A stretch of 5,177 bases of DNA, taken from Candidatus Rokuibacteriota bacterium (lineage in GTDB: Bacteria > Methylomirabilota > Methylomirabilia > Rokubacteriales > JACPHL01). Positions 2,637 through 5,177 of the stretch are shown in pieces. Position numbers and translations under genes: made by a program. The stretch spans positions 5,560 through 10,736 of the forward strand of contig JACPHL010000154.1 in assembly GCA_016188625.1 (NCBI GenBank). Direction: 5' to 3'. The notes beneath the pieces are model-generated. The model searched no databases. It was given only the letters and a program-made list of their open reading frames with translations, and was not told the DNA's origin. Position 1 is the first letter of the stretch. Each line of letters begins with the position of its first letter.

Positions 2637-2652
2637 TGGCATCTGGCTTGCG
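2637..2652 (+). promoter_or_regulatory. Sigma-54 (RpoN) -24/-12 promoter
   Basis: TGGCATCTGGCTTGC at 2637-2651 matches the sigma-54 consensus TGGCAYR-N4-TTGC with exact spacing. The invariant GG (-24) and GC (-12) dinucleotides are 10 bases apart, and the only mismatch in the -24 block is C for the purine. The base after TTGC is G rather than the favoured A/T. Transcription should start near 2663, giving a leader of about 39 bases before the lipoprotein start codon at 2702. It lies in the only intergenic gap, in the right orientation. Sigma-54 promoters need an ATP-dependent enhancer-binding activator, so the downstream genes would be conditionally expressed. Confidence 0.65.
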
Positions 2653-2701: not shown

Positions 2702-3520
2702 ATGGGACGGACGATGAGGCGATGGGTCGGCATGGTGATGATGGCGGGCGTGCTCCTGGCCGGGTGCGCCACCCCCGAGGGGCGGCTGGCCGGGGAGACA
2801 CTGAGGCTGGGGCTGTTCAACCTCGTGCTCTCGCCGTTCATGATCGTCGCGGGGCTCGCCCAGGGGCTGGCCTTCCTCCCGTACACGGTCGGGACGGAGC
2901 TGGTGGAGCTGAACAAGGGCCTGATCCAGGCCCAGGCGGTCACGCTGGACGACTCCTACCGGGCGACCTTCGGGGTCTCGATCCACGACCCGCGCGTCCA
3001 CCCCCGGACCGGCGAGGTCTCGGGCGAGACGCGCCGGTTCGCCAACATGCTGGAGGCCACCCAGGCCTTCCAGCGGCTGCTGGTCTCGCAGGGGATGCCG
3101 GAGGAGGTCGCCCGCCGGCACGTCCTCGCCTCCATCGACACCCACACGAGGAGCCGCGGCCACATCCTGCTCACGGTGGTCTACCGGCACCGGGGGATGC
3201 AGCCGTTCACGGCGGTCTCCAAGCACACGGGGATCGTGACGACCTTCCGGCCGGAGCACTCGGGGTGGCGGGAGCCGTACGAGCGGGACGCCCGCGGCGA
3301 GCTGATCGACGAGGTGGTGGACTGGGCGGGGCTGGAGTTCGACCTCCTCAAGCAGGACAAGGTGGTCGGGATGCTGATGGTGCTGGCGGCCGAGGCCGTG
3401 AAGACCGGCAAACGGTCGCCGGAGTACTGGCAGGTGGAGCGGCGCTGGATGGCCGGGGAGACCACCGAGATCATCCGCGAGTCCCTGGCCAAGGTGAAGC
3501 TCGATGGGCCGCGCGGCTGA
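2702..3520 (+). CDS. Lipoprotein of unrecognised family
   Basis: This 272-residue protein has a classical lipoprotein signal: basic start (MGRTMRRW), hydrophobic core 9-20, and lipobox LAGC with the lipidated Cys at 22. Residues +2/+3 after the Cys are Ala and Thr, not Asp, which in proteobacteria-like systems favours sorting to the outer membrane. After a short linker comes a second apolar stretch (about 36-65, LGLFNLVLSPFMIVAGLAQG onward) that may embed in or lie along a membrane. The remainder is a charged, soluble domain with IHDPRVHPRTGEV (94-106), a helical segment ending near GMPEEVARRHVL, a strand ILLTVVYRHRGM, and an Arg/Glu-rich helical end. I do not recognise the family. The start is fixed by a strong Shine-Dalgarno site. 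It is the first gene after the proposed sigma-54 promoter and its end overlaps the next gene by 17 bases, so it is probably cotranscribed with the START-like and acyltransferase genes. Confidence 0.9.
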   Translation: MGRTMRRWVGMVMMAGVLLAGCATPEGRLAGETLRLGLFNLVLSPFMIVAGLAQGLAFLPYTVGTELVELNKGLIQAQAVTLDDSYRATFGVSIHDPRVHPRTGEVSGETRRFANMLEATQAFQRLLVSQGMPEEVARRHVLASIDTHTRSRGHILLTVVYRHRGMQPFTAVSKHTGIVTTFRPEHSGWREPYERDARGELIDEVVDWAGLEFDLLKQDKVVGMLMVLAAEAVKTGKRSPEYWQVERRWMAGETTEIIRESLAKVKLDGPRG

Positions 3521-4175
3521 GCGCCCTTCCATGACCCGCATCGTGATCGCCCTCGCGCTGCTCGGTATCCTCGTGGGCCCGGCCGAAGCCCCGGCGGAGA
3601 CGCCGGGGCTCTCCCCGGGCGACCTCAGCCGGCTCAGCCGGGGCGAGATCCTCTTCCGGAACCAGCTTCCCTCGGCCGAGGACGCCCCGGCCGGGAACGG
3701 CGGGACCGCCCTCGTCGTGCTGGAGGCGGACCCGCAGGAGGTCTGGCGGATCCTGACGGACTTCGACCACTACGCGGGCCTCTTCCCCCGCCTCAAGGAG
3801 TCCGAGGTGGTGGACCGGAACGGGGCGCGGGCCCTGGTCCGCTTCCACGTGGCCGTGGGGTGGTTCAACTTTCGCTTCTTCGTGGCGCACGTGGTCTCCC
3901 AGGAAGGGCGGGAGCTCCGCTGGCGCCTCGACCGGAGCCGGGAGAACGACCTCTTCCGCGACACCTGGGGGTACTGGCGGCTCGACCCCCTCCCCGGCGG
4001 CCAGCTCCTGGTGACCTACGCCATGGGCTCGCAGACGGTCCTGCCGGCGTTCCTCACCCGGGGCTCGGAGCAGGAGTCGGTCGTCAAGACGCTGGCGGCG
4101 TTGAAGGCCCGCGTGGAGAGGAGCCGGGGGGTGAGGCACGCAGAGGGCCGACCGGGGCTGCCCGGGGAGGTGTAA
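3504..4175 (+). CDS. Secreted START/SRPBCC-domain (polyketide cyclase-like) protein
   Basis: This 223-residue protein begins with a signal peptide (apolar core 13-25, likely cleavage after Ala31 in AEAPA). An SRPBCC-fold domain occupies about 66-205. SRPBCC/START domains form a helix-grip cavity for lipids or other apolar ligands; here it would act in the periplasm. Typical features are LSRLSRGEILF (41-51), the opening strand GGTALVVLEA (66-75), DPQEVWRILTDFDHYAGLFPRL (76-97, the family's 'VWxxLTDYxxxPxFxP' motif), an Arg-rich central sheet, a GYWRLDPLPGG strand turn and a long C-terminal helix. ATG 3504 has AAGGTG seven bases upstream but lies inside the lipoprotein gene. ATG 3531 gives a more standard signal peptide (MTRIVIALALL) but lacks a ribosome site. 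The tight overlap points to coupled translation with the lipoprotein. Fold confidence is good; ligand or enzymatic activity is unknown. Confidence 0.87.
   Translation: MGRAAERPSMTRIVIALALLGILVGPAEAPAETPGLSPGDLSRLSRGEILFRNQLPSAEDAPAGNGGTALVVLEADPQEVWRILTDFDHYAGLFPRLKESEVVDRNGARALVRFHVAVGWFNFRFFVAHVVSQEGRELRWRLDRSRENDLFRDTWGYWRLDPLPGGQLLVTYAMGSQTVLPAFLTRGSEQESVVKTLAALKARVERSRGVRHAEGRPGLPGEV
4164..4172 (+). promoter_or_regulatory. Shine-Dalgarno site that could use a TTG start
   Basis: GGGGAGGTG sits across the end of the START-like gene, just before its TAA. It is five bases before TTG 4178, which is in frame with the acyltransferase, and 20 bases before ATG 4193. It is the strongest ribosome-binding sequence near this junction and makes the TTG a real competitor for the start. 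Confidence 0.45.
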
Positions 4176-4192
4176 GCTTGGCGAGGGCAGCC

Positions 4193-5177
4193 ATGGGGCA
4201 GGAAGCCGTGAGGGAGCGAACCGCCATGGGCTACCGGCTGGTCCTCGGCTTCGCCCGGCTGCTCCCCGGGCTCTTCTACCGCCGCGTCGCGGTGGTGGGG
4301 GTCGAGCACATTCCGCCCTCGGGCCCCGTGATCCTGGCGGCCAACCACCACAACTCCCTGGTGGACCCGATGCTCCTCCTGGCGACGATCCCCCGCCGGC
4401 TCACCCCGGTCGCCAAGGCACCCCTCTTTCGCCACCCGCTGATCGCCCCCTTCCTCCGCCTGGCCGGGGCCATCCCGGTCCATCGGCGCCAGGATCCGGG
4501 AAGCGATGCGGCCGGGAACGTCGAGATGTTCCGGCGGGCCGCCGCCACTCTCGGCGAAGGCGGGGCCGTCCTCATCTTTCCCGAGGGGCTGAGCCAGCCC
4601 GAGCCGGTCCTGATGCCTCTCCGCACGGGCGCCGCGCGGATGCTGCTCGGGGCCGAGGACGCCGCCGGGGGGCCGCTCGGGGTCACGCTCCTCCCGGTCG
4701 GGCTTGTCTTCCACGAGCCCGGCGCCTTCCGGACGGGGTGGGCGCTCGTCCTGGTCGGCGAGCCCGTTCTCACCGACGACTGCCTCGCGCTCTACCGGAC
4801 CGCCCCGGAGGCGGCGGTCCGTCAGCTCACCGACCGCCTGGCGGAGGCCCTGCGCCGGCAGATCGTGGAGGTGGAGGATCGCGAGACTTTCCGGCTGCTC
4901 GGGGCCGTGGAGGCGATCTGGCGCGAGGAGGCGCCGGATGCGGCGGCGGATCCGGCGGCGCGGGCGGCGAGGATGCAGCGGGTTCTGCGGGCCTACCGGC
5001 ATCTGGCGAGCGAGGAGCCCGCCCGGGTGGCGGGGTTCCGGCGAGGGGTGGAGCGCTACTTGAGGGATCTCGACCTGGCCGGTCTCACGGGACGGCAGCT
5101 CGCCCAGACCTACCCTCCGGGCGTCGTCGGCCGCTACGCCCTGCGGGAGGGGCTCTCCCTCCTCGCGGGCCTGCCGC
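4193..5177 (+). CDS. PlsC-family glycerolipid acyltransferase (3'-partial)
   Basis: This protein likely transfers an acyl chain to glycerol-3-phosphate or lysophosphatidate at the inner membrane; 328 residues are visible and the frame is open at the window end. All four acyltransferase blocks are present (numbered from ATG 4193). Block I is ANHHNSLVDP (50-59) with the catalytic His/Asp pair H52 or H53 and D58. Block II is AKAPLFRHPL to GAIPVHRRQD (74-101). Block III is FPEGLSQPEPVLMPLRTGAAR (129-149). Block IV is LLPVGLVFHEPGAFR followed by VGEPV. The HxNxxVDP form of block I and the PLRTGAAR extension resemble the Gpt2/Sct1-type glycerol-3-phosphate acyltransferase branch, which has a long C-terminal part, as seen here. 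ATG 4193 has GAGGG five bases upstream. TTG 4178 and ATG 4226 (AGGGAG nine bases upstream) are in-frame alternatives. It follows the START-like gene by 2-17 bases, so it is probably in the same operon. Confidence 0.9.
   Translation, partial: MGQEAVRERTAMGYRLVLGFARLLPGLFYRRVAVVGVEHIPPSGPVILAANHHNSLVDPMLLLATIPRRLTPVAKAPLFRHPLIAPFLRLAGAIPVHRRQDPGSDAAGNVEMFRRAAATLGEGGAVLIFPEGLSQPEPVLMPLRTGAARMLLGAEDAAGGPLGVTLLPVGLVFHEPGAFRTGWALVLVGEPVLTDDCLALYRTAPEAAVRQLTDRLAEALRRQIVEVEDRETFRLLGAVEAIWREEAPDAAADPAARAARMQRVLRAYRHLASEEPARVAGFRRGVERYLRDLDLAGLTGRQLAQTYPPGVVGRYALREGLSLLAGLP

Follow-up and report, generated by a model that had tools for sequence, protein, structure and literature searches.

A predicted sigma-54 promoter before a conserved lipoprotein gene in Candidatus Rokubacteria and its probable linked activator

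Candidatus Rokubacteria are bacteria of soil and groundwater, and belong to a phylum in which little or no experimental work on gene regulation has been done; a literature search found no paper combining sigma-54 with Rokubacteria. The stretch of DNA analysed here, hereafter the window, is 5,177 nucleotides long and corresponds to C279:5560-10736 in a 2.6-Mb genome of 344 contigs that is 84% complete. It raises the question of whether a -24/-12-like sequence in front of a lipoprotein gene is a genuine sigma-54 promoter, and, if so, which protein would activate it and which genes it would serve.

TGGCATCTGGCTTGC occupies 2637-2651 of the + strand, and a G at 2652 completes TGGCATCTGGCTTGCG (2637-2652). 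The distance from GG (2638-2639) to GC (2650-2651) is exactly 10 bp, and the whole is close to the sigma-54 consensus TGGCAY-N5-TTGC; the exact spacing given in a preliminary description of the locus is thus confirmed, and a ribosome-binding site precedes the start codon. The element is located in a gap of 175 bp between the end of dctQM (2526) and the ATG of the lipoprotein gene (2702). A search of 2400-2800 gave no sigma-70-type promoter, no terminator was found in the gap, and a search for plasmid copies of the promoter region returned none. The features of the window are as follows.

1-719, + strand: DctP solute-binding subunit of a TatT-associated TRAP transporter (PF03480), part of the sister sigma-54 operon
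688-2526, + strand: DctQM fused membrane subunit of the same TRAP transporter (PF06808 and PF04290)
2570-2588, + strand: candidate enhancer (UAS) dyad CTGCTCAAGTTTTTACCAG, 19 bp, for the linked enhancer-binding protein (symmetry, composite conservation)
2589-2636, no strand assigned: AT-rich spacer with T-tract TTTGTTTTTT, the tract about 15-25 bp upstream of -24
2637-2652, + strand: predicted sigma-54 -24/-12 promoter TGGCATCTGGCTTGCG (motif, orthologue conservation), predicted transcript start near 2663
2690-2695, + strand: ribosome-binding site AGGAGG before ATG 2702 (sequence)
2702-3520, + strand: uncharacterised lipoprotein of 272 aa, lipobox LLAGC, the conserved target gene (orthologues)
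3531-4175, + strand: START/polyketide-cyclase-like protein with a signal-peptide-like N-terminus, likely second gene of the operon (PF03364, 5e-14)
4178-5177, + strand: PlsC-type acyltransferase running off the window, likely third gene of the operon (PF01553, 2.6e-20)

The motif by itself was rejected as proof of a promoter. The pattern TGGC-N7-TTGC has 64 matches in the 2.6-Mb genome versus 51 for the reversed control, a count near chance, and since it is so common genome-wide, its mere presence proves nothing. It is because of its position and its conservation upstream of orthologues that TGGCATCTGGCTTGCG becomes significant. Nine of 59 genomes of the order, that of the window among them, carry an orthologue of the lipoprotein gene (56-69% identity in the relatives), as do some Proteobacteria. 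The strict motif occurs within 250 bp upstream of 8 of the 10 Rokubacterial copies, while dinucleotide shuffles give a chance expectation of 0.001-0.007 (about 0.004) per locus. At these strict loci it stands 53-84 bp from the start codon, except at L048, where it is at -236 and a small ORF intervenes, and a ninth Rokubacterial copy (L049) carries TGGCAGGCCCTCTGCT, one change away from the strict form. The genes upstream of the lipoprotein gene vary between Rokubacterial genera and the motif recurs nonetheless, the promoter block being the best-conserved part of the upstream alignment. A paralogue (L053/L065) has neither the motif nor a linked fused activator; the same is true of all five proteobacterial orthologues (52-61% identity; strict motif in 0/5), and one Rokubacterial genome, G001, has the promoter and no linked activator. 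Conservation upstream of orthologues and the presence of RpoN were two of the three checks that the preliminary description had named; the former is borne out by the counts above, and for the latter the host genome encodes one copy of rpoN (PF04552, 7e-62, 208 bits), along with 18 matches to the sigma-54 activator domain PF00158. Taken together, these comparisons give good support to TGGCATCTGGCTTGCG as a predicted sigma-54 promoter of the conserved lipoprotein gene.

At three proteobacterial loci the lipoprotein orthologue follows a gene for a MalT/BTAD-like STAND regulator of about 1075-1112 aa, which stands in place of the sigma-54 activator (L074:650-3871, L076:4499-7732 and L079:4428-7763; identified by eye). 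This arrangement suggests an exchange of regulators that have a similar ATPase/TPR part.

The lipoprotein itself has no match in Pfam or NCBIfam and no credible match in the PDB, either by sequence or by Foldseek; its AF2 model is of fair quality (pLDDT 80.5), and the best VIA-align score (Z 2.3 over 98 residues) is uninformative. Its stop codon is followed after 10 bp by the START gene, whose stop codon is in turn followed after 2 bp by the acyltransferase gene. In no other genome examined are these two genes neighbours of the lipoprotein gene, and the START orthologues in other genomes are located away from it, so that the argument for a three-gene operon, as first described, is one of spacing. 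The part of that description which assigned the promoter to the lipoprotein gene stands, and the two downstream genes are probably co-transcribed with it.

Upstream, an enhancer-binding-protein gene of about 1343 aa (C279:106-4140, minus strand) lies about 4 kb from the lipoprotein promoter. It is divergent from an operon that holds a TatT gene (PF16811) just 5' of DctP, and thus the set TatT, DctP and DctQM, and the sigma-54 site TGGCACCCGAGTTGC, the predicted promoter of this sister operon, is located between the two outside the window (C279:4256-4270). Just before the window start, the TatT-DctP stretch (L044:4287-6275) contains a frame change and an assembly gap of 5 unknown residues. The encoded protein begins directly with a sigma-54 AAA+ domain (PF00158, 1.7e-58; Walker A and B motifs GETGTGKG and TLFLDEVG), no N-terminal sensor domain preceding it, and continues with the lid, a DNA-binding Fis HTH (HTH_8, 1.7e-10, residues 282-315), a degenerate cyclase-like region with a guanylate-cyclase match below threshold, AAA_16 and TPRs. 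Residues 328-975 give a kinase/cyclase-fusion-like NCBIfam match under its curated cut-off, and the domain scan found no PRD or EIIA domains. The loop that contacts sigma-54 reads GAFTDA instead of GAFTGA, as it does in the family members with a readable loop.

Linkage between the fused activator and the lipoprotein gene holds at 7 of the 10 Rokubacterial loci, all seven with the strict motif, and the linked activators are 50-62% identical where the full length is available. At E <= 1e-250, members of the activator family are present in 37 of 95 genomes sampled from the phylum, nearly all of them in this order plus two in another, and of 20 members examined, about 12 have a strict sigma-54 site opposite them, the two of the other order included. 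In the latter genomes (G088 and G087; L137 and L138) the relatives are 64-68% identical and their strict sigma-54 sites share the T-tract but are preceded by another upstream element; a search of both genomes gave no lipoprotein orthologue.

A further element would tie the activator to the promoter. The 19-bp sequence CTGCTCAAGTTTTTACCAG is a partial palindrome of the form CTG.T.AA...TT.A.CAG, with two-fold symmetry at 12 of 19 positions, and is located 48 bp upstream of the -24 element, its centre being ~59 bp from the -24 GG. With at most one mismatch, the dyad core has only two sites in the 2.6-Mb genome, both on C279; the second (C279:4176-4191) is 64 bp from TGGCACCCGAGTTGC. A composite, defined as the dyad core followed after 35-65 bp by TGGC-N7-TTGC, occurs 7 times in 4 genomes among 60 genomes of the order and 0 times in the control, and all seven precede either the lipoprotein gene or the operon facing the activator gene. 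Measured from centre to centre, the dyad and the promoter are 65 bp apart in the window and 76-80 bp apart at the other sites. As far as the sequences tell, the dyad thus accompanies the promoter only at the presumed targets of the activator, in two genera (g1 and g15), to which it is confined. It was not found at the orthologues of g2, g9 and g13, although the promoter and the activator are kept there; enhancer sequences must therefore differ in these genera, or the dyad is clade-specific. The T-tract of the spacer recurs at a similar distance in the sister promoters and in the two genomes of another order. The spacer also has an IHF-like match, weak (12/13) and confined to the window; being single and not conserved, it was rejected as an IHF site.

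The preliminary description had ascribed the promoter to an unknown activator. Given the linkage and the composite sites, that adjective probably no longer fits, for the ~1340-aa protein encoded 4 kb upstream is a strong candidate and probably the activator of the lipoprotein promoter. It is conceivable that the sigma-54 promoter is real and that another enhancer-binding protein, for example an NtrC-type response regulator, activates it, the dyad being bound by something else; the 18 PF00158 matches of the genome offer such proteins, and three genera keep the promoter without the dyad. This is quite unlikely, however, as in the 60 genomes dyad and promoter were found together only before the lipoprotein gene and before the operon opposite the linked activator, and the linkage itself holds at 7 of 10 loci.

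The same evidence bears on two further readings. That the -24/-12 match arose by chance, the gene being read from a sigma-70-type or a read-through promoter, would agree with a genome-wide count that barely exceeds the control and with the AT-rich gap, but is hardly credible given a motif that recurs at eight of ten orthologues in non-homologous contexts, a gap region with no sigma-70 match, and a dyad conserved at a similar distance from the promoter. The promoter might, on the other hand, serve the lipoprotein gene only, with the START and acyltransferase genes regulated on their own, as the dispersed arrangement of these genes in other genomes would allow; we regard this as unlikely, because in the window the three genes share a strand and are only 10 and 2 bp apart, too close for promoters of their own to fit between the coding sequences. 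We therefore consider it highly probable that the locus has a genuine sigma-54 promoter, on which the linked activator acts via the dyad, and that the sister operon is driven together with it.

What the genes under such control would have in common is indicated by their neighbours in related genomes. TatT-type TRAP (TPAT) transporters, to which the sister operon would belong, have been proposed to take up lipids (PMC5812351). In G037 and G033, the operon located between the activator and the lipoprotein gene has genes for an alpha/beta hydrolase-methyltransferase and a PAP2/dual-specificity phosphatase, together with a PlsC-type acyltransferase and a CdsA-type cytidylyltransferase; these assignments come from family scans in G037, and the genes of G033 are 83-91% identical. 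In G001 the lipoprotein gene is preceded by a desaturase gene and a CdsA-type gene, by a homologue of the PlsC type and by a weak match to CDP-alcohol-transferase. The linked genes thus appear to converge on lipid and envelope functions, which would fit a role of sigma-54 in governing the bacterial exterior, as has been proposed (PMC3162934), and the membrane remodelling envisaged in the preliminary description finds an echo in this recurring lipid theme. Some further neighbours were noted by eye: fused activators in G011:C16 and G001:C2 (L124, L125) adjoin a gene resembling a fatty-acid hydroxylase, with the motif HHTLYPDSRHT; downstream of the G030 lipoprotein gene there is a radical-SAM-like gene (L066:2072-3403); and in G038:C9 (L121) a radical-SAM-like gene faces a family activator and is followed by an acyl-carrier-protein-like and a ketosynthase-like gene.

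The promoter, the dyad, their joint conservation, the gene linkage, the protein domains and rpoN are read from the sequence, and on this basis the following circuit may be proposed. RNA polymerase carrying RpoN would settle on TGGCATCTGGCTTGC as a waiting closed complex; the activator (C279:106-4140) would bind the dyad at 2570-2588 and loop over the AT-rich spacer, and its AAA+ domain would open the promoter. Through the second dyad and promoter (C279:4176-4270), this activator would also drive the TatT-DctP-DctQM operon. Since the activator has no N-terminal sensor, gating is presumably exerted by its C-terminal cyclase-like/AAA_16/TPR part, and the probable outcome would be a coordinated, conditional expression of lipid uptake and of lipid and envelope functions. 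Binding, looping, the extent of the operon, the lipid function and the signal are in this scheme what we infer. More broadly, and tentatively, it is possible that a large family of giant sigma-54 activators is centred on Rokubacteria, its members having a GAFTDA loop that is 'unlocked' by nature and a sensing module moved to the C-terminus (cyclase-like, AAA_16 and TPR). In such a family the signal would be read by the STAND-like C-terminus and not by an N-terminal sensor, and the genes controlled would be sets for lipid uptake and membrane lipids. A single motif is in this way turned into a testable circuit of promoter, enhancer, activator and two target operons, and the view of sigma-54 as governing the exterior would be extended to Rokubacteria.

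In comparison with known systems, the promoter adds a member to a class already described, and the circuit, through its fused GAFTDA activator, is a variation on known arrangements. Like other sigma-54 promoters with enhancers, it has TGGC and TTGC with GG-N10-GC, an upstream dyad, a divergent activator gene and a genomic rpoN, but its dyad is centred only ~59 bp from the -24 GG and its target is an uncharacterised lipoprotein family. Enhancer-binding proteins of the PspF type have no N-terminal regulatory domain, and those of the LevR/DagR type are regulated through a large C-terminal part. The linked activator resembles these types in having the AAA+ domain at or near the N-terminus, a DNA-binding HTH and a large C-terminal part, and differs from them in its order of AAA+, Fis HTH, cyclase-like region, AAA_16 and TPR, its size and its GAFTDA loop. 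The sister operon has the same TatT, DctP and DctQM set as the TPAT of Treponema pallidum (PMC5812351), but here it stands behind a predicted sigma-54 promoter. The GAFTDA loop is also that of NorR G266D, which is fully constitutive, being active without sensor control, and still activates sigma-54 transcription (PMC2941729); what is a laboratory mutant in NorR is, however, the natural state of the whole family here. GAFTDA has been listed as a tolerated natural variant, and DVU2106 of Desulfovibrio vulgaris, a single-component regulator with assigned targets, carries it naturally (PMC4641369); it is likened to the present activator on the basis of the loop, and its targets, unlike those proposed here, are cell-division operons. 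As the architecture is widespread and its loop matches a known constitutive mutant, how such activators are kept off becomes directly testable.
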